Source of the DNA: Rahnella variigena
Lineage (GTDB): Bacteria > Pseudomonadota > Gammaproteobacteria > Enterobacterales > Enterobacteriaceae
Assembly (NCBI RefSeq): GCF_003610915.1
Contig: NZ_NSDJ01000001.1
Location: 1,612,001 to 1,676,000 of the forward strand
Length of the DNA: 64,000 nt
Direction of reading: 5' to 3'
Part shown: positions 27,787 through 37,307 of the stretch, piece after piece
Layout of the letters: the number at the start of each line of letters is the position of its first letter
Numbering within the stretch: the stretch's first letter is position 1
Translations under genes and position numbers: made by a program
Notes under the pieces: model-generated
Database searches by the model: none
Told to the model about the DNA's origin: nothing
The model's input: the letters and a program-made list of their open reading frames with translations, nothing else

Positions 27787-28683
27787 ATGGAGAACCTCAA
27801 CGGCCTGCTGGCCTTCGTCCGTGCGGCGCAGAGTCAGAGTTTTGCGGCGGCGGCGGAGCGCATGGGGATTTCGGCCTCGGCGGTTGGCAAAAGTGTGGCG
27901 CGGCTGGAGGAAAAACTCAGCGTGCGGTTATTCAACCGTAGCACGCGGCGTATCAGCCTGACCGATGAGGGGCAGCTGTTTTTCGAACGCTGCCAGAATA
28001 TCGTTTCGCAACTGGAAGAGGCGGAACAGGAACTGGTGCGAATTTCTGCTGTGCCACGCGGAAAATTACGCATCACCGCGCCCGCTATCGGTTACCGCAT
28101 GCTGTTGCCGCATCTGCCGGAATTTCGTCAGCGTTATCCAGATGTCGAACTGGATCTGGATTTCAGTGACCGGATGGCAGATGTCATCGACGAAGGCTTT
28201 GATATCGCCATCCGCAGCGGCGAACTGAACAGTTCACAAATGATGTCACGCCGCCTCGGGCCGTTCCGGTTTGCCATTGTGGGAAGTCCGGCGTATTTCG
28301 CCAGCCATCCGGCGCCGCTAAGATCTGACGATCTTTATCAGCACGCCTGTCTGCGCTACCGGTTTCCGGGCAACGGACAGTGGCAGGAATGGGAGATGAC
28401 CGGCGTGACGCCACCTGAGCTGCCGCTGGCGCTGAGCAGCAATAATCTGGAATCTATTTTACAGGCGACGTTGCAAGGGCTGGGACTGGCCTATGTGCCG
28501 GAATTTATCGTGCGGCCTTATCTTGAGTCCGGTGAACTGGTGGCGGTGCTGCATGATTATCTGAAAGAAGGCGGGAAGTTTTCCGTGGTGTGGCCGAGCA
28601 GCCGTCATATGCTGCCGAAAGTGCGGGTATTTATTGATTTTCTTACCGAAAAACAGGTGCTGGGTGATATCACATCCGGATAA
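27787..28683 (+). CDS. LysR-family transcriptional regulator
   Basis: The 298-aa protein has an N-terminal helix-turn-helix in FAAAAERMGISASAVGKSVA and RLFNRSTRRISLTDEG. The effector domain contains GKLRITAPAIGYRMLLPHLPEF and DIAIRSGEL. It is of the AaeR/CrgA-like subgroup often found divergent from efflux or oxidoreductase genes. Here it is divergent from the DHA2 pump, its likely target. The ATG follows GGGAAGGAAAA. A hairpin terminator follows the stop at once. Confidence 0.9.
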   Translation: MENLNGLLAFVRAAQSQSFAAAAERMGISASAVGKSVARLEEKLSVRLFNRSTRRISLTDEGQLFFERCQNIVSQLEEAEQELVRISAVPRGKLRITAPAIGYRMLLPHLPEFRQRYPDVELDLDFSDRMADVIDEGFDIAIRSGELNSSQMMSRRLGPFRFAIVGSPAYFASHPAPLRSDDLYQHACLRYRFPGNGQWQEWEMTGVTPPELPLALSSNNLESILQATLQGLGLAYVPEFIVRPYLESGELVAVLHDYLKEGGKFSVVWPSSRHMLPKVRVFIDFLTEKQVLGDITSG

Positions 28684-28819: not shown

Positions 28820-30925
28820 TCAGATTTGCTTCCACTGTGACCATTCGCCGGTAAATTCGGCTTTGCCCGGCTGGTCGCCCTGCGTCCAGTAGTTGGCCTG
28901 ATAATCTTTACCGTTCAGGCTGACTTTATCACCCGTGTTGTACACCTTGCTGGTTTCCCAGGTGGCATATTTGCCGGCCGGAGATGGCGTTGGTGTCGGC
29001 TCTGGCGTTGGTTCTGGTGTTGGTTCAGGAGTCGGTTCCGGCGTTGGCTCTGGTGTCGGTTCAGGCGTTGGCTCCGGAGTCGGTTCTGGCGTTGGTTCTG
29101 GTTCAACAGCCGTATTCCCGAGGACGGTCACGGTGATAGATTTGGACGATGATTTCTCACCATGCTCATCGGTGACGACCAGAGTGAAGCTGAAATCAGA
29201 TTTGCTGACCAGGTCCGGTGCAGTGAAGTCTGCGGACACAGCGCTATAAGAAGACAGCGCAATGGCAGCCGGCGCAGTCCATTTATACGTCAGCTTGTCG
29301 TTGTCGCGGTCGGCAGAACCCGCTGCGCTCAGACGCACTTTCGCGCCGCTGAATACCTGCAACGAAATGTCACCGGTCGGTGCCACATTGCTTTCCGCAG
29401 GGACTTCATCTTCCGGTACCTGACCCGCGATATTCACCCCTTCAAAGTAGAAAGGTGACATATCAATAACCTTCTGCTCGAGGGTGTAACCGAGGCCTTC
29501 ACGTGCGGCATTGACCAGAATGCCGTTGTCCTGATCGATGGTCCAGGTAAAGAGCGCACCCAGGCCTTTTTCAATCACATAACGGCCTTTTTCACGCACG
29601 GTACGTGGAGTATCGATAGACATAAAGAGGCCGGTATCTTTGTTGTAGAGATAATCAGCATCAGCAACCTGATCGGTGTACACCTCAAAGCCGTTGCGGC
29701 CTGACTGGTTTTCCAGATCCAGATAGTTATTTACCAGGTCGTACCATTCGCTGGTACCGCTTTCGAACGTCCCGACAGTGGTTTTGCCTTCAACAGGGGT
29801 ATAAGACCCTTCCAAAGGAGAATAACTTTCCAGCACGGCATTCTGGCCATTACGGGAATAGGCGGCATAACCGACGTTAATACGATCCGCCGGGAAGCCT
29901 TTAGCCAGCAGGTATTCCACGATGGTATCGGTACCGAAACCACCTTCAACCAGCGCATGCAGGTTGGTATGGTGTGCCAGTTTTTCAGCCCACGGCGTAC
30001 CGAAGAAGTCATAAGTCATGACGTTAATGCCATACAGGCCAGCAGCCTGCAGTGCAGTTACGTTGGATTTTTCAAGGATGGCGACCACAGCGGAGCTGGC
30101 GATACTGATTTTCACATCAGAGCGCTTGATGGCTTTCATCTCTTTGGTGATTTCAGCCAGCAGCAACGCATAGTTTGCACCATCATTATCGTCATACGGG
30201 TTGTTATTCCCGGCATTACCCGGATATTCCCAGTCGATATCCACTTCGCTGAACATTGGGAAACGGGTGAACAGGCTCGCGACGCTTTTAGCAAAAATCT
30301 GACGCCCGTCTGCTGATTTCGCCATGTTGTGGAAGCCATTACTTAACGTCCAGCCACCAATACTCATGGAAAGCACCAGATCATGACCGACCGCTTTGGC
30401 ACGTTTTTGCAGGTCACGTAAGCCGCCAATCAGACCTTTTACATTGGCTTGCGTGGCGCTGGTCGGAGAAAGCTCAACCCAGCCCGGATTGTCGAGATTG
30501 TTATTGACGGTAGAAGCGAAATCACCCCACGGATCCAGGAACGTCGCCTGATGGGTGGTTTTGTCCATTTGCCGCGCCGCATTGGCGACGGTGTTGGCTT
30601 TTTCGCCCTGATCACCAACGATTCCAACGAAACCAAAGATGATTTTGTCGTAAGCAGTCGGTGGAATATTTGCCAGATCAAAGCCACGGCCACGTGACCC
30701 TTTTTCTGCCTTCGCATTTTGCAAACGGCCATCATATTGAGACCAGTCAGTATAATAACCAAATACTTTTGGCTTATTCGCCTTGTTGTATTTGTTGTAT
30801 ACCGGTTTAGTGACACGTGCAGAGGTATAGCTGTAATTCTCTGTTTCTGTGGCGGGTTTAAAACCGTCATCTTTATAGGAAGATTCGGTTAACTCGTCGG
30901 TCTTAATGATTTCACTGTTCGGCAT
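28820..30925 (-). CDS. GH18 chitinase without signal peptide, PKD-like and CBM5/12 domains
   Basis: The 701-aa chitinase cleaves chitin by substrate-assisted catalysis. The GH18 barrel spans about residues 50-490, with LSMSIGGW (185-192), the catalytic motif VDIDWEYPG (E233 as acid; S226 replaces the first D of DxxDxDxE) and MTYDFFG (303-309). A PKD/Ig-like domain (about 512-602), a PTPE-repeat linker (608-648) and a CBM5/12 chitin-binding module (651-701, with YWTQGDQP and GEWSQW) follow. The N-terminus MPNSEIIKTDELTESS is hydrophilic, with no Sec or Tat signal. AGGAAA precedes the ATG. Export would need another route, such as the adjacent muramidase/holin genes. Confidence 0.93.
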   Translation of the reverse strand: MPNSEIIKTDELTESSYKDDGFKPATETENYSYTSARVTKPVYNKYNKANKPKVFGYYTDWSQYDGRLQNAKAEKGSRGRGFDLANIPPTAYDKIIFGFVGIVGDQGEKANTVANAARQMDKTTHQATFLDPWGDFASTVNNNLDNPGWVELSPTSATQANVKGLIGGLRDLQKRAKAVGHDLVLSMSIGGWTLSNGFHNMAKSADGRQIFAKSVASLFTRFPMFSEVDIDWEYPGNAGNNNPYDDNDGANYALLLAEITKEMKAIKRSDVKISIASSAVVAILEKSNVTALQAAGLYGINVMTYDFFGTPWAEKLAHHTNLHALVEGGFGTDTIVEYLLAKGFPADRINVGYAAYSRNGQNAVLESYSPLEGSYTPVEGKTTVGTFESGTSEWYDLVNNYLDLENQSGRNGFEVYTDQVADADYLYNKDTGLFMSIDTPRTVREKGRYVIEKGLGALFTWTIDQDNGILVNAAREGLGYTLEQKVIDMSPFYFEGVNIAGQVPEDEVPAESNVAPTGDISLQVFSGAKVRLSAAGSADRDNDKLTYKWTAPAAIALSSYSAVSADFTAPDLVSKSDFSFTLVVTDEHGEKSSSKSITVTVLGNTAVEPEPTPEPTPEPTPEPTPEPTPEPTPEPTPEPTPEPTPTPSPAGKYATWETSKVYNTGDKVSLNGKDYQANYWTQGDQPGKAEFTGEWSQWKQI
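28982..29106 (-). repeat. Coding tandem repeat for PTPE linker in chitinase
   Basis: DNA encoding about ten Pro-Thr-Pro-Glu units (residues 607-648), visible as alternating GGTTCTGGTGTT- and GGCTCCGGAGTC-like blocks. It is a flexible spacer between the PKD-like domain and the chitin-binding module. Repeat number may vary between strains by slippage. Confidence 0.85.
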
Positions 30926-31373
30926 AATAATTTCCTAAGTTTTAATTGAATACATCAACAGCCGTTTGCTGCTGGTGGATATATTCGACCTGGAAATAAA
31001 AACCGGCAAATCACATTGAGATATAAATAAAATTGACTAAGATAAAATTTATGGATGTTTTATGAACGTTAAAACATGGCTAGTTTTATCGATCTCAATA
31101 ATCACGCTGATGACAAAATCACATATCACAAATTAATCATTAAAAACATTACTATTCAGTTGCTTGACTGGCGTGTTGTTGTTGAGTGAGAATTAAGTTG
31201 TTTTTGAGTTTTACTTAATAACCCCCCGTTTCTTCTAAATCAGTCACATCTTAACTAAAATACTTAATATTAATCCTATTGCCTGTGGAGAAAATAATAA
31301 AAGCAGATACGCTTAATCATCAGCAAAGATTACGTGGGGTTTCTCAGATGTTTGTAATAATGGAGGGGAGAGG
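30926..31373. promoter_or_regulatory. AT-rich divergent region between chitinase and wHTH regulator
   Basis: This 448-bp region is visibly richer in A/T than the flanking genes and has no plausible ORF. It must contain promoters for the GH18 gene (minus) and for the regulator-muramidase pair (plus). An AAAAC-N7-GTTTT inverted repeat lies near 31070-31090. It is the most likely target for the locus regulators. Confidence 0.5.
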
Positions 31374-31820
31374 ATGATGGCTGTTTACCTGATAAATAGT
31401 GAATATGTATTTAATGAAAAAACAAAGGAATTTAAAAAACTCCACAGTGATGTAAACATTAAACTGACGTCAATGAGAGCACGCTGTCTGAGTTATATAA
31501 TTGAACATGCCCAGGATGAAGTCATCGAAAAAGAGGCAATCTCACAAGCCTTGTGGGGGAGCCGCAGTAAATTCACCAGCGATGCCAGCCTCACTCAAAC
31601 TCTTTATTTAATACGCCGTGATCTTAAATTTGCCGGACTGGATGAATTTTTTATTACCGTACCGAAATCAGGCATCCGTGTCAGTACCTCAGCCACCGTC
31701 GAAATCATGGAAGAGAAGGTTCCACCTGTCAAAAACGTCAGACCGTGGCTGCTGGCATTTGGTTTTATCGTCTCAGTGTTATTGCTCGGTACCGCGTTGT
31801 TCCTGACGCTTCAACTTTAA
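31374..31820 (+). CDS. ToxR/CadC-type winged-helix regulator with C-terminal membrane anchor
   Basis: The 148-aa protein has an N-terminal OmpR/PhoB-type winged helix (about 5-105). It shows LTSMRARCLSYIIEHA, EKEAISQALWG, DASLTQTLYLIRRDL and the wing ITVPKSGIRVS. A single membrane span (about 124-146) and a tail of only two or three residues follow. Unlike ToxR or CadC it has almost no periplasmic sensor domain. It should be anchored N-in and bind DNA from the membrane. AGGGGAGAGG precedes the start, where two adjacent ATGs are possible. The muramidase follows 21 bp later, so the pair is probably one operon. Confidence 0.85.
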   Translation: MMAVYLINSEYVFNEKTKEFKKLHSDVNIKLTSMRARCLSYIIEHAQDEVIEKEAISQALWGSRSKFTSDASLTQTLYLIRRDLKFAGLDEFFITVPKSGIRVSTSATVEIMEEKVPPVKNVRPWLLAFGFIVSVLLLGTALFLTLQL

Positions 31821-31841
31821 TCGTTGTCGGAGGAATACCTT

Positions 31842-32384
31842 ATGTTTACCAATCCTGTGATCAATTCTGTACTGAAAAACGAAGGGGGTTATGTTGACCA
31901 CCCGAATGATACCGGCGGCCCGACCCATTGGGGTATTACCGAAAAGACCGCCCGCAGTTATGGCTACACCGGGAAAATGGTCGACTTCACGAAAGAAGAT
32001 GCCTACCTGATCCTGGAAAAAAATTACTGGTATCAGCCGGGTTTTGACAAAGTCTATGCCATCGCACCCGTGCTGGCGCTGGAACTGTGTGATACCGGCA
32101 CCAATATGGGGCCGGTCGTCGGTATCAAATGGTTGCAACGCTGGCTGAATGTGTTTAATCACGAGGAAGCCCACTATGCCGATATCACCGTTGACGGCAA
32201 AATTGGTCCCGGTACGTTAAAGGCGTTGACGCAGTTCCTTGAGAAACGCGGTACGGAAGGCGCCGGGGTCCTCGTCATCTCCCTCAATTGCAGTCAGGGG
32301 CAACGTTACCTGGAACTGGCAGAAGGGCGAACTGCCAACGAATCATTCGTTTATGGCTGGATGAAGGGGCGGATAAATCTCTAA
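31842..32384 (+). CDS. GH108 N-acetylmuramidase (endolysin-like, TtsA/ZliS type)
   Basis: The 180-aa peptidoglycan hydrolase is of the GH108 family with a C-terminal PG-binding domain (PG_binding_3-like). The motif NEGGYVDHPNDTGGPTHWGI (residues 13-32) carries the predicted catalytic E14. FLEKRGT and TVDGKIGPGTLKAL lie in the second half (about 95-175). No signal peptide is present, so it needs a holin or another route to reach the wall, as phage endolysins do. Family members include phage lysozymes and TtsA, the Salmonella Typhi muramidase needed for typhoid toxin release. GGAGG precedes the ATG at 31842; the frame opens earlier at a TTG that overlaps that site. Confidence 0.9.
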   Translation: MFTNPVINSVLKNEGGYVDHPNDTGGPTHWGITEKTARSYGYTGKMVDFTKEDAYLILEKNYWYQPGFDKVYAIAPVLALELCDTGTNMGPVVGIKWLQRWLNVFNHEEAHYADITVDGKIGPGTLKALTQFLEKRGTEGAGVLVISLNCSQGQRYLELAEGRTANESFVYGWMKGRINL

Positions 32385-32525
32385 TTTTGTCGGAATTTTT
32401 TGTGAATGCGTATGCCAATCATAATGCTTATCAATATTAAAGGTGGATTTTTCTGACAGTAAAATGCATAAAGAGTTGTATTATTTATTTTGCAGAAAAC
32501 TATCCCATTATCTGGAGAGTCAATA

Positions 32526-33467
32526 ATGAATGAGCCAAGTGCGATTAATTTCGATTACAACCTAATAAAGATAATGAACGAAGTCATTGTTTCAGGGAAT
32601 ATTTCAAAAGCCGCTGAAAATCTGAGCCTTACCCCCTCAGCAATAAGTTTGTCGATAAACAAACTCAGGCGGCATCTTGGGGAGGATTTGTTCTACCGTA
32701 CGGCAACCGGCCTCAAACCGACGGCCACTGCGCTGGATATTCATGATTCCTTTGTTAACGCGATTACTATTATTGAAGATGTCCTCCAGTCGACAAAAAC
32801 GGAGGGGCCATCCTGCCCCATATTACGCGTGATGTGTCCTGATGTACTTGAGGATTATTATTTTAACAGGATGTATAAGAACGATTCTGGAAAAGCGGTA
32901 AAAGTAGAGTTTTCCAGTACGAATAATGTTAAGAGTGATGAAATGGTAAAGAGTTTGTTGCATGCAAATATTGACGTGGTGATTTCGCATCATGCCCTGC
33001 AACATGAAAAAATCACTTCGGTAAAGATGGATTCCATGGATAACTACGTTATCTTGTGCGGTGCCAACAGTTTATTATCCAATCAAAAAGAACTGGCACT
33101 GTTGCACTATTATGCATTACCTCACGCAGTTTATAATGACGGTGTTTATAATGATTTTACCAGCCTTCTTGGTACCTCTCTGACCATTGATGCGCCCTAT
33201 GCGGGCCTGGTCAAAGTCATTTATCGCTCTTCTTCCATCAACGGAATCATCAGCGCGCTGGAACGCAGTGATATGCTCACAGTCCTGCCCCGTATGCTGG
33301 CAGACTATTTTATCCGGGAACGAAACTGTAAGTTGAAATGCTTTGATTTACCGAAAGAAATTTCTATCAAACATTCACCTGTCTATATGCATTACTTGTC
33401 CAACAGCAGCAAAAGACGTTATGTACATATGGTCCTTTCTCAGTTGAAGGCCGTGGAGCCTGTCTGA
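32526..33467 (+). CDS. LysR-family regulator inside the chitinase/lysis cluster
   Basis: The 313-aa protein has an N-terminal helix-turn-helix in ISKAAENLSLTPSAISLSINKLRRHLGEDLF and RTATGLKPTATAL. The effector domain is diverged and lower in GC than its neighbours. The ATG at 32526 has GGAGAG at good spacing. It lies between the muramidase and the holin in the same direction. In Serratia a LysR protein, ChiR, activates chitinase genes; a similar role here is inferred from position only. The effector is unknown. Confidence 0.87.
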   Translation: MNEPSAINFDYNLIKIMNEVIVSGNISKAAENLSLTPSAISLSINKLRRHLGEDLFYRTATGLKPTATALDIHDSFVNAITIIEDVLQSTKTEGPSCPILRVMCPDVLEDYYFNRMYKNDSGKAVKVEFSSTNNVKSDEMVKSLLHANIDVVISHHALQHEKITSVKMDSMDNYVILCGANSLLSNQKELALLHYYALPHAVYNDGVYNDFTSLLGTSLTIDAPYAGLVKVIYRSSSINGIISALERSDMLTVLPRMLADYFIRERNCKLKCFDLPKEISIKHSPVYMHYLSNSSKRRYVHMVLSQLKAVEPV

Positions 33468-33664
33468 AAGATGTGGCAAAAAATGGGATTAACGAGATTT
33501 ACGATGAGATATTTTTATTTTTTAATGACAATTTTTTAATAAATACCCTTCACCAGATGATTAAAATTAATTATTGAGGTGAAGTGATTATTGCTTTGAT
33601 GCGAACCGGATTATGATTGTCGCAGTTATCTAATTGTACTTAATTAATCTATGAGGTTTTCATC

Positions 33665-33997
33665 ATGATCACTTTTCATGCTAAAGAAGTTGTATTTATC
33701 GAATTTGAATTATTAGTTTCCATATTAGTTATGTCGTCATGGGGTGGGTTGGTGCTTTTCATTATGCGCTGCAAAACTAAACCTACCGTTGAGGATATTT
33801 ATAAGTGCTTTGCGCAAATTGTCGTATCGTGTTTCACCGGTTTTCTGTTAAGTATTGTTTTGATTGAAAGGGATATGAGTTTTAATATGATTTTGCTGAC
33901 CTCCGGGATGGGAGGCGTCCTCGGTGGGCCGTTATTAATGATAGCGGGTGATCGGGTGAAGAGGTTGGCAGAAAACTTTACGTTTGCTCAGCGGTAA
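33665..33997 (+). CDS. LydA-like (holin superfamily III) holin
   Basis: The 110-aa protein is predicted to span the inner membrane three times (about 10-33, 47-67 and 72-95). It has SSWGGLVLFIM, AQIVVSCFTGFLLSI and a glycine-rich GMGGVLGGPLLMIAGDR, and ends in a charged cytoplasmic tail. Order and motifs resemble phage LydA-type holins. Holins form pores that let endolysin reach the wall; secretion clusters use the same step without killing the whole population. GAGG precedes the ATG. There are no phage genes around. The assignment is good for fold and length, weaker for exact subfamily. Confidence 0.8.
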   Translation: MITFHAKEVVFIEFELLVSILVMSSWGGLVLFIMRCKTKPTVEDIYKCFAQIVVSCFTGFLLSIVLIERDMSFNMILLTSGMGGVLGGPLLMIAGDRVKRLAENFTFAQR

Positions 33998-34038
33998 ACG
34001 AAGGGAATCAATGAAATTTCACATTGAGTGATAAATAT

Positions 34039-34076
34039 GCGGATCGATTCCAATGACTCGGTCCGCGTTTTTATTT
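34039..34076 (+). terminator. Terminator after holin gene
   Basis: GCGGATCGA and TCGGTCCGC form a 9-bp stem with one G-U pair and a 10-base loop, followed by GTTTTTATTT. It separates the holin from the GH19 chitinase, so the latter should have its own promoter. Confidence 0.8.
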
Positions 34077-34283
34077 CTGGCGTAAATTTATAAGCCATAA
34101 TTTAATAAATATCATCCTGTTATTATGATGTTTATGACCTTGTTTTTATTAGCGGGAATGGCATCGGGCGAATAATCTTTTGAGTGACAGGGCAGGGAAG
34201 CGTTACAAAGACTCTGGCCGGTTAATATCATGCAGAAATTATTTTCAGCATTTAACTTCGACTCAATATATAAGGTTATCCTT

Positions 34284-36074
34284 ATGCGCAGAACTAAAGA
34301 TAAAGCCCTTTTACAGCTTATGACGCTTTCCTGTCTGATGGCTGGCATGGCACCGGCTCTGGCAGCCGATACGTCAGAGCCCTACGTCATCAAAGAAAGT
34401 GACCTGATCAAAAAAGAGAACAGCCTGACTCAAAACCCGCTAATGCAGGAAGTGAAAGCCTCAATCCGCACGCTGGATAACGATTCTGTCGATAAAATTG
34501 CACCAGGCCGCAGCGATAACCCGGCCAACGTCAAGCGGGTGGAAAGCATTCTGGGCAGCGATAAGTGGGACCATATTTTCCCGTTGCGTGACCCGAGCTA
34601 TACCTACACCAAATTCCTGCAAGCCATCGGCAAGTTCCCGGCGGTGTGCGGAACTTACACTGATGGTCGTGATTCTGATGCCATTTGCCGCAAAGGCCTT
34701 GCCACCATGTTTGCACACTTTGCACAGGAAACCGGCGGCCATGAAAGCTGGCGTCCTGAAGCCGAATGGCGTCAGGGGCTGGTATTCCTGCGTGAAATGG
34801 GCTGGAAAGAAGGGCAGAAAGGCGGCTACAACGGCGAATGTAACCCGAACGTTTGGCAGGGACAAACCTGGCCGTGCGGCAAAGATGCCGACGGGGATTT
34901 TGTCAGCTACTTCGGTCGCGGGGCCAAACAGCTTTCTTATAACTATAACTATGGCCCGTTCTCCGATGCCATGTTCGGCACGGTCAAAACCCTGCTTGAT
35001 AAACCGGAGCTGGTGGCTGACACCTGGCTGAACCTTGCCAGTGCGGTATTTTTCTATGTGACGCCACAGGCACCGAAGCCGAGCATGTTGCATGTGATCG
35101 ACGGAACGTGGCAGCCAAACGATCATGACAAAGCTAACGGTCTGGTACCGGGATTCGGCGTGACGATCCAGATCATCAACGGCGGCGTTGAGTGCGGTGG
35201 CCCGCAGGATATTGCGCAGGGTCTGAACCGTATCTCGTATTACAAAAGCGAAGCGGAATACCTGAAAGTGCCGGTTCCGGCAAACGAAGTGCTGGGCTGT
35301 AAAAACATGAAGCAGTTTGATTCCGGTGGCGCGGGCGCATTGCCGCAATACTGGGAACAAGACTGGGGATGGTCAGCAGAAACGCCAACCGGTCTGACTT
35401 ACTCCTGTCAGCTGGTCGGTTATCAGACACCGTTCTCCGCATTCAAAGAGGGCGATTACCAACGTTGCGTGCAGCACTTCTTTAACGTGAAAGTGGTCGA
35501 TGATGCCGGTAAAGAGGAAGCGGTAACGCCTGCCCCTGAACCGACGCCAGCACCAACACCAACACCGGAACCGACACCAGCCCCGGCTGACGGTAATTCT
35601 GCGCCGGTAGCAAAACTTTCCGGCCCGATTGGTGATGTGGAAAGTCAGGCGAATGTGACGCTCAATGCGGCTGAATCTACCGACGCTGATGGCGATAAAC
35701 TCACCTACAGCTGGTTGCTGCCGAACGGCACTACGCTGGCCGGTAACGATCGTGAGTCGCTGAGTTTTGTTGCACCGGTGGTCACCAGCAAGCAAAGCTT
35801 CAACTTCACCCTGACCGTTTCCGATAGTAAGAAAAGCAGTGTGGCGACGTATGTTCTGACAGTCACACCGAAAGTATTGCCGCTCCCTGATGAAGGCACC
35901 AGCACTGGCTGCGCTGACAACTGGGATGCGGGTAAAGTGTATAACGGCGGAGAAAGTGTGAACTGGAAAGGTAAGGAGTATCTCGCGAATTACTGGACTC
36001 AGGACAATGAGCCAGGTAACCCATCGTTCACCGGTGAATGGTCACAGTGGAAAGAGATCAAAGCCTGTAAGTGA
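34284..36074 (+). CDS. GH19 chitinase with signal peptide, PKD and CBM5/12 domains
   Basis: The 596-aa endochitinase uses an inverting mechanism. The signal peptide (1-27) ends PALAAD. The GH19 catalytic part (about 75-400) has FAHFAQETGGHES with catalytic E149 and YFGRGAKQLSYNYNYGPFS (209-227). A proline-rich linker (414-437), a PKD-like domain (438-530) and a CBM5/12 (546-592, YWTQDNEPGN and GEWSQW) follow. The ATG at 34284 with AAGG upstream puts the signal peptide at the N-terminus. The C-terminal modules are near copies of those in the GH18 chitinase. Sec takes it to the periplasm; final export over the outer envelope needs another step. Confidence 0.93.
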   Translation: MRRTKDKALLQLMTLSCLMAGMAPALAADTSEPYVIKESDLIKKENSLTQNPLMQEVKASIRTLDNDSVDKIAPGRSDNPANVKRVESILGSDKWDHIFPLRDPSYTYTKFLQAIGKFPAVCGTYTDGRDSDAICRKGLATMFAHFAQETGGHESWRPEAEWRQGLVFLREMGWKEGQKGGYNGECNPNVWQGQTWPCGKDADGDFVSYFGRGAKQLSYNYNYGPFSDAMFGTVKTLLDKPELVADTWLNLASAVFFYVTPQAPKPSMLHVIDGTWQPNDHDKANGLVPGFGVTIQIINGGVECGGPQDIAQGLNRISYYKSEAEYLKVPVPANEVLGCKNMKQFDSGGAGALPQYWEQDWGWSAETPTGLTYSCQLVGYQTPFSAFKEGDYQRCVQHFFNVKVVDDAGKEEAVTPAPEPTPAPTPTPEPTPAPADGNSAPVAKLSGPIGDVESQANVTLNAAESTDADGDKLTYSWLLPNGTTLAGNDRESLSFVAPVVTSKQSFNFTLTVSDSKKSSVATYVLTVTPKVLPLPDEGTSTGCADNWDAGKVYNGGESVNWKGKEYLANYWTQDNEPGNPSFTGEWSQWKEIKACK

Positions 36075-36170: not shown

Positions 36171-37307
36171 TCACCGGCCTCTTTTGTCCAGCCATTTACC
36201 CATTTCGGCCAGCGCTTCATCAAGATTTTCGCGACCAAAACCGATACGCAGGAAATCTTCCGACACGGTGTTCAGTTCTGACGCGTAGGCGACAGAAGGG
36301 ATCACCATCACACCGGCTTCTTCAACCAGCCGCGTGGCGAAAGCTTCTGCGCCCTCTGCACCGGTATAACGTGGAAAAGCCAGTACCCCGGCCTTCGGCA
36401 CGCTGAGCCGGAACAGATGCGGGTATTTCGCCAGAAATGCGGTAAGCGACGCGAGCTGACGGCGCGAGCGCTCCATCACCCTTTCGAGTATGGGCGCACG
36501 GGCATTCAGTGCCACGGTGGTAAGGAACTCACCGGGCATCGAGTTGCAGATAGACAGGTACTGTTTCATGCGCTCCAGTTCCAGCATCCACGATTTATCC
36601 TGGCACGCCACCCAGCCGATGCGCAGACCCGGTAATCCGTAAGCCTTGGACGTCACATTCAGGGAGATCCCGCGCTCGTAGACATCCGCCAGTTGCGGCA
36701 GACGATCGGCCGGATCGAACTCGGTCAGCCGGTACACTTCGTCTGAGAAAATCCAGATCCCACGCTCGCGACACAGGTCGATCAGCTCATTAAGTTGCTG
36801 GCGGCTGATGAGCGCGCCAGTCGGATTATGCGGAAAGTTAATCACCAGCACTTTGGTATTGGCGCGCAGTGCGTCGCGGACTTTACCGGTATCCAGCGCC
36901 CAGTCGTTATCTGCATCGAGCGCCACGCCGGTGACGTCGCACAGCGATAACGGTACGCTTTCCAGCGACTGATAATTCGGGGTGATCACTACCGCGTGAT
37001 CGCCGGACTTGAGCAGCATCTGGAAGCTGGCGTAAATCGCTTCGTCGGCCCCGGCAAAACTGATGACGTCCTGCGCGGCGACATTTTTATAGGTCGAGGC
37101 GATGGCGTCGAGCAGTTCGGGTGTTCCGCGCAGTGGCGGGTAATCCAGCACGGTTTGCATGAATGGCGCGCGATGCTGCTTTCCGGCCAGTTCAAATAAC
37201 GTATCGATGCTCATCGATTCCGGATAAGACGATGACAGCGGAAAACGCACGGCGTGTTCGAGACGCGAGAGATAGCTGATTAAGCGAAAATCTTCAGGAA
37301 AAGACAT
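36171..37307 (-). CDS. Class I/II PLP-dependent aminotransferase
   Basis: The 378-aa fold-type I aminotransferase has NFPHNPTG (157-164), FSDEVYRL with the PLP-binding D189, and the Schiff-base lysine K221 in TSKAYGLPGLRIGW. The substrate is not given by these motifs. It is co-directional with an amino-acid-type ABC permease (29-bp gap) and binding protein whose promoter carries a MetJ-like box. A methionine- or sulfur-amino-acid-related transamination is therefore a reasonable inference. Capreomycidine-synthase-like relatives exist in the same superfamily and cannot be excluded. Confidence 0.85.
   Translation of the reverse strand: MSFPEDFRLISYLSRLEHAVRFPLSSSYPESMSIDTLFELAGKQHRAPFMQTVLDYPPLRGTPELLDAIASTYKNVAAQDVISFAGADEAIYASFQMLLKSGDHAVVITPNYQSLESVPLSLCDVTGVALDADNDWALDTGKVRDALRANTKVLVINFPHNPTGALISRQQLNELIDLCRERGIWIFSDEVYRLTEFDPADRLPQLADVYERGISLNVTSKAYGLPGLRIGWVACQDKSWMLELERMKQYLSICNSMPGEFLTTVALNARAPILERVMERSRRQLASLTAFLAKYPHLFRLSVPKAGVLAFPRYTGAEGAEAFATRLVEEAGVMVIPSVAYASELNTVSEDFLRIGFGRENLDEALAEMGKWLDKRGR

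Follow-up and report, generated by a model that had tools for sequence, protein, structure and literature searches.

What are a phage-type holin and a phage-type muramidase doing between two chitinase genes in the chromosome of Rahnella? The question is raised by a window of 64,000 nucleotides of Rahnella variigena DNA (the whole stretch that was analysed: assembly GCF_003610915.1, contig NZ_NSDJ01000001.1, positions 1,612,001 to 1,676,000), in which an earlier note, made from the sequence letters, had picked out six genes as a candidate type 10 secretion system (T10SS), that is, a holin/peptidoglycan hydrolase system, for chitinases. The six open reading frames (ORFs) are all open at 28820–36074, where that note had placed them, and each gene is confirmed by profile searches (Pfam, PHROGs). 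The locus is very probably a chitinase-exporting T10SS cassette of Rahnella, orthologous to chiA-chiR-chiP-chiH of Salmonella. A T10SS-type chitinase cassette is a kind of system already known, from Salmonella; what may be new is the addition of a GH19 chitinase with a Sec-type signal, and a holin that is exchangeable and possibly acts in trans, for neither of which did we find an earlier report among open-licence PMC papers. The parts of the cassette are:

28820..30925, minus strand: GH18 chitinase (ChiA type) with PKD and CBM5/12 domains (Pfam PF00704, 6e-55).
30926..31373, no strand: divergent chiA/chiR intergenic region, likely regulatory, with blocks conserved among the five ‘site-A’ genomes described below.
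31374..31820, plus strand: ChiR-like winged-helix regulator (Trans_reg_C; PF00486, 8.5e-6, exactly at the cut-off).
31842..32384, plus strand: muramidase (ChiP type) with GH108 and PG_binding_3 domains (Pfam; endolysin in PHROGs).
32526..33467, plus strand: LysR-type regulator (PF00126, PF03466).
33665..33997, plus strand: LydA-type holin, holin A (Phage_holin_3_3), 110 amino acids, intact (PF16083, 9e-14; PHROG 785, holin).
34230..36074 (ORF; likely start 34284), plus strand: GH19 chitinase with PKD and CBM5/12 domains (PF00182, 2e-37).

What the proteins look like agrees for the most part with what had been claimed for them. The profiles proposed as a check—GH108, PG_binding_3 and a phage-holin family (PF16083)—all matched. 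A simple hydropathy scan, the basis of all that is said here about signal peptides and membrane segments, finds no N-terminal hydrophobic stretch and hence no signal peptide in the GH18 chitinase or the GH108 muramidase, one C-terminal transmembrane (TM) segment (residues 126–144) in the winged-helix regulator, which had been called membrane-anchored, and three TM-like segments in holin A. On the N-terminus of GH19 the earlier note was silent; only GH18 and GH108 lack a signal. From start 34284, which is backed by a conserved block upstream, GH19 has a clear signal-like, Sec-type N-terminus, so that, of the two enzymes, GH19 looks Sec-exported and GH18 does not; GH19 is likely the second cargo of the cassette. 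The translation starts are likely 31842 for GH108 and 32526 for the LysR-type regulator. GH18 contains the sequence DIDWE, which we take to be its catalytic motif, and its nearest solved structures are Chi2 (4dws) and Chi1 (3oa5), presumably the Tc chitinases of Yersinia entomophaga. Its lack of a signal is general: none was found in 35 of 36 further GH18 proteins, the 36th being that of locus L243, where chiA is in two pieces. A conserved leader of about 45 residues in GH18 was considered as an export signal and rejected; by eye, it is no more conserved than the catalytic domain, and it is largely common to Chi2 (the alignment starts at residue 4).

Orthology with the Salmonella system carries much of the argument. 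In Salmonella Typhimurium, secretion of the GH18 chitinase ChiA goes through a holin together with a TtsA-like muramidase (Krone et al. 2023, PMC10109510). The cluster consists of chiA, chiR (ToxR-like, one TM segment), and genes for a TtsA-like peptidoglycan hydrolase, a holin and a LysR protein; deletion of the holin or the hydrolase abolishes ChiA secretion, and RecA is not released. A 2026 paper (PMC13284979) names ChiP and ChiH, describes ChiR-dependent induction of both, and notes that spanins are lacking; the loci are stm0018 (ChiA), stm0017 (ChiR), stm0016 (ChiP), stm0015 (ChiH) and stm0014 (LysR). The same combination having been published for Salmonella, the statement that GH108 muramidase, holin and chitinase cargo had not been seen described together falls, and with it the novelty, whereas the T10SS-type cassette itself stands, on this orthology and on the all-or-none co-occurrence described below.

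The Rahnella locus has the same five gene families, with chiA divergent from chiR, chiP following, no signal on ChiP and no spanin found. Its regulator, ToxR-like with one TM segment and divergent from chiA, stands where it does in Salmonella-type cassettes, and its GH108 falls in one clade (support 100) with those of Salmonella enterica diarizonae (L142) and arizonae (L146). By family and neighbourhood, the LysR-type regulator appears to be the counterpart of stm0014. As in a T10SS, holin and signal-less hydrolase genes are linked to a gene for a probably secreted enzyme, outside any prophage (profiles were scanned across the cassette genes and their two direct neighbours). The differences are in arrangement and additions. 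At the window's site, LysR precedes the holin, both on the chiR strand, whereas the Salmonella type has the two on the opposite strand; and Rahnella adds the GH19 chitinase and, in four of the five site-A genomes, a second, unlinked holin.

Other relatives are less close. ChiWXYZ of Serratia marcescens is likewise a holin with a peptidoglycan hydrolase, serving chitinases of which some are Sec-exported, and it uses ChiX and two spanins (PMC13284979). No operon of ChiX plus two spanins was found here; the cassette has no Rz spanin, and the only gene found in the genome for Rz (PF03245), the one spanin type searched, lies on a second contig. Nor has the window's genome a match to Peptidase_M15_4, which we take to be the family of the ChiX endopeptidase.

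‘TtsA-type’, as the muramidase had been called, holds for its domain make-up and some substrate-site residues. It shares GH108, PG_binding_3 and residues E14, D118, T125, N166 and F169—among them the catalytic E14, and N166, which is required for action on LD-cross-linked wall—with Sen1395 (6v3z) and with 6v40, taken as TtsA, the typhoid toxin muramidase, from its match and the eLife paper; residues 116, 120 and 164 are T, K and T in Rahnella and I, Q and Q in TtsA. N166 was tried as a mark of secretion-type muramidases and rejected, since most GH108s outside cassettes have it too. The name does not hold for descent. In a tree of 71 distinct GH108s, 38 chitinase-linked proteins and that of L078, a Yersinia-like Tc locus, split from the rest with support 100, and two proteins of the genus Salmonella (L215, L221), putative TtsAs by having exactly its named residues, lie outside this clade; the window's GH108 is thus ChiP-type, not TtsA itself. 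Left out of the tree were L126–L128 and L130 (from the same genomes as L073, L071, L072 and L076), the broken or partial L158, L159, L160 and L256, L257 (no ORF), and the phage and plasmid matches; identical sequences were merged, and L076 was assigned manually to the chitinase-linked group, as its GH18 lies on a second contig. GH108 endolysin/holin pairs of phages and phage-plasmids belong to the same enzyme and holin families, the top phage and plasmid proteins among the matches listed being 58.3 and 60.5 percent identical to the window's GH108, which differs in being chromosomal, beside regulator and chitinase genes, with no phage genes seen, and in a clade of its own.

How widespread are such cassettes? 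A first survey used two conserved peptide patterns of GH108 to scan 84,980 species genomes and yielded 35 GH108 loci. A ChiR-like gene adjoins GH108 in 16, with GH18 in 15 of these, while the remaining locus is truncated where its contig stops. Ten of the 16 come from outside Rahnella, Ewingella and isolate RIT714, and in those ten holin and LysR are on the opposite strand, converging on GH108. A second sample, of 392 family genomes whose species partly overlap those of the first, had close GH108s in 49 genomes, at 56 places (at most eight candidates were scored per genome). Fifty of these loci were newly fetched; in 27, GH18, ChiR, LysR and a LydA holin lie within 8 kb, and in the other 23 none of these was detected within that distance; GH19 was seen in none of the 50. 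More diverged holins may have been missed, since loci of this kind contributed to the holin profile. With five in Rahnella, chitinase cassettes make up 32 of the 56 places (with the GH18 of genome G013 on a second contig); L078 is the sixth place outside the fetched 50.

Some of these loci deserve mention for themselves. Edwardsiella ictaluri and E. anguillarum have three GH108 loci each (L138, L139, L143, L144, L147, L148), with no nearby chitinase or ChiR-like gene detected. In S. enterica arizonae (L146, L243), chiA is in two pieces and the rest of the cassette is kept. L078 has GH108 and ChiR-like genes near a Tc/RHS-type gene and dnaK/dnaJ-like genes. And in G013 (L123, 6545–8628) a LydA holin, a LysR gene and a ChiR-like regulator stand directly beside Tc/RHS-type genes; there, this module of regulator and holin apparently serves a Tc-type cargo.

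Within the genus, 14 genomes were compared, the window's being G000. GH108 occurs in eight, and the same eight carry close, nearly full-length GH18 (at least 68 percent identical) and GH19 (at least 81 percent), an association beyond chance. Raw tallies of 10/14 and 9/14 had also counted a 52-percent GH18 (G002), a proline-rich stretch (G011) and domain-only matches. In five genomes (G000, G003, G004, G007 and G012) the cassette occupies the window's site, site A, whose borders are:

27787..28683, plus strand: LysR gene, left border of the cassette (Pfam; neighbour comparison).
36171..37307, minus strand: aminotransferase gene, right border of the cassette (Pfam; neighbour comparison).

In the other nine genomes these two genes adjoin directly (tblastn hits covering less than 40 percent of a gene were dropped here, and less than 75 percent in the identity comparison below). 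G005, G010 and G013 have the cassette at another site, beside cstA/ybdD or beside spy and a LysR gene, in the order holin B, chiA (reversed), chiR, GH108, LysR, GH19; cstA/ybdD was not found in the stretch fetched from G010, and in G013 the cassette is split over two contigs. These gene labels (cstA, ybdD, spy, GNAT, dapF-like, MFS, ABC) are ones we assume from reading translations. Between the two sites, identity is 46–47 percent for LysR, 66–76 for ChiR, 67–71 for GH18, 71–73 for GH108 and 84–87 for GH19, and holins A and B are 33–38 percent identical, compared with 83–98 percent for the flanking proteins of the same genomes. Having diverged beyond their flanks, the two cassettes were, going by these sequences, probably acquired separately and not simply moved. 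Among the five site-A genomes the cassette genes are under strong purifying selection (ratio of nonsynonymous to synonymous substitution rates, dN/dS, 0.03–0.12).

How would the cassette work? If Salmonella is a guide, the membrane-bound ChiR-like regulator would switch on the divergent chiA and its own operon. The LydA holin, in the inner membrane, would admit the signal-less GH108 muramidase to the periplasm, and the muramidase would open glycan strands locally. GH18 would cross the inner membrane perhaps through the holin lesion, and GH19 by Sec; both would then pass the wall, and in this way, we infer, the cassette would secrete its chitinases in Rahnella. An unlinked LydA holin, encoded at the cstA site, could stand in for the cassette's own.

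Several observations weigh against this picture. Without a signal, GH18 needs another way out of the cytoplasm, which leaves the inner-membrane route open, and the words ‘signal peptide’ and ‘signal sequence’ are absent from the text of the Salmonella paper (PMC10109510). The window's genome contains gspL, a gene of the type 2 secretion system (T2SS; GspL), which could take a Sec-exported GH19. G002 is without the cassette, yet has the 52-percent GH18. The linked holin is damaged in three of the five site-A genomes, so linkage alone does not prove use; and a LydA-family holin was found somewhere in two of the six non-carriers (G006 and G008) when the 14 genomes were searched for the family.

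Might the same genes release chitinases simply by killing? A holin and muramidase that lyse a few cells, spilling the enzymes, would act as in the release of the Tc toxin of Y. entomophaga, which is reported to be lytic (PMC10847048). The kinship of both proteins to phage lysis proteins favours this, as does that of GH18 to Chi1 and Chi2, but the Salmonella ortholog secretes without RecA release (PMC10109510) or viability loss (PMC13284979), and the sole gene found for Rz, the one spanin type searched, is on another contig; we think lytic release unlikely. That the lysis genes are leftovers of a prophage, beside chitinase genes by chance and with no part in export, is very improbable. The families are phage families, the linked holin is decaying in three genomes, and G+C content is low, 42–43 percent at 30–34 kb against 48–59 percent in the preceding 2-kb steps, which hints at foreign origin (56–64 kb is likewise low, at 37–47 percent; the window has no tRNA). 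Against this stand the all-or-none pattern within Rahnella, the purifying selection that acts on GH108 (dN/dS 0.04–0.11), its distinct clade, and the same association in 27 of the 50 newly fetched loci. Phage structural genes, reported absent by the earlier note, were indeed not seen by eye among the ORFs at 26–40 kb, and neither the ORF reading, the comparison with empty sites nor the profile scan of the cassette genes and their two neighbours placed the cassette among phage structural or integration genes.

The rival for GH19 is of another sort: export by Sec and the T2SS, with the T10SS a neighbour only and GH19 not its cargo. T2SS export is possible. The signal-like N-terminus, present in nine of nine GH19 proteins examined, points that way, as do gspL, the 286-bp gap that precedes GH19, and the fact that no GH19 was found in any of the 27 non-Rahnella cassettes of the family sample or in that of Ewingella. 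But GH19 goes with the cassette in all eight Rahnella carriers and in RIT714 (where the holin comes after GH19), at the other chromosomal site too, and Serratia passes Sec-exported chitinases through its T10SS, according to a review. That GH19 is a mere neighbour seems to us, on balance, rather doubtful. In Ewingella americana (L131, 10110–10181), a short CBM-like remnant lies where Rahnella has GH19.

There remains the holin. G000 and G007 have an intact holin A. A stop interrupts the G003 copy at codon 13; the following ATG, at codon 23 within the first TM segment, might still give a shortened product. In G004 the gene is split over two frames, and G012 keeps about a third. (Matches scored as holin A in G004, G005, G010, G012 and G013, and as holin B in G007, are cross-hits to the other holin.) On the point whether lysis genes are lost where both chitinases are kept, the muramidase, then, is kept in eight of eight, and the linked holin is damaged in three of five at this site; all three of those genomes keep an intact unlinked holin. 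For at the cstA site G003, G004, G012 and G000 have an intact holin B but none of the other genes of that cassette, and G007 and all six non-carriers have no holin there. At least one intact cassette-type LydA holin is present in each of the eight carriers; further LydA holins occur elsewhere in some of the 14 genomes. That holin B is kept at cstA in cassette genomes whose holin A is damaged suggests that a distant locus may provide the holin in trans.

The proposal is that the T10SS holin is exchangeable and can act in trans: Rahnella would have gained a second, diverged cassette, lost the older one at cstA and kept its holin under selection, and several lineages would run the new cassette with the old holin. 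We hold this tentatively, with slightly more doubt than belief. That holin B is unrelated to the cassette, merely a relic being slowly lost, is quite conceivable too, if a little hard to credit. Orphan holin B is in four of five site-A carriers and none of six non-carriers, a small association limited by the 14 genomes compared (Fisher p = 0.015, uncorrected for phylogeny). The non-carriers, however, form three lineages (G001/G008/G009; G002; G006/G011) in flanking-gene trees (five genes at one site and three at the other, not genome-wide), and both unlinked loci have clearly been lost independently only in G002, whose neighbours in the trees are two genomes with cassette and orphan; this is the one clearly informative case. 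Nor is complementarity within the five carriers significant: the sole genome without holin B is among the two with intact holin A, a chance of 2 in 5. A relic fits less well with the intactness of holin B, its dN/dS of 0.07–0.16 among the four copies (some of these differences may have arisen before its cassette was lost), its absence from the cstA site of all six non-carriers, and its apparent re-acquisition in the window's genome. There, about 0.98 Mb from the cassette, it has an intact ybdD on one side and, on the other, a repeat of about 70 bp of the 3′ end of that gene (L118, 9314–10321), likely an insertion footprint, and it shares 94 percent identity with the copy in G004, a more distant genome; together these suggest re-acquisition by recombination. 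In E. americana (L131), whose cassette adjoins the same LysR gene, no holin was detected less than 8 kb from GH108; that genome yielded a single LydA holin, a holin B relative (72 percent; L181, 7083–7418), about 9 kb from GH108 and separated from it by several unrelated genes.

A block, TGTGATTTT, possibly a regulator site, is conserved in all nine holin B upstream regions (L118, L119, L120, L121, L072, L074, L077, L181 and L129), which otherwise align poorly. A promoter motif common to the chiA/chiR, holin A, holin B and GH19 upstream regions was sought and discarded; TGTGATTTT resembles sequence on the chiA side only loosely and unconvincingly. Promoter and terminator scans gave no more hits than shuffled sequence.

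The survey makes the Salmonella-type chitinase T10SS a wider enterobacterial system, present at 32 of 56 GH108 places among the 392 family genomes sampled. Rahnella species offer natural swaps and breaks of the holin, by which a standing question becomes testable: does a holin need to match its hydrolase and to be linked to it? The holin of TtsA was termed ‘yet unidentified’ in 2026 (PMC13284979); if a holin can indeed act in trans, missing T10SS holins such as this one should be sought genome-wide. And a cassette with one Sec-signal and one signal-less chitinase is useful for asking which step of export the holin serves.

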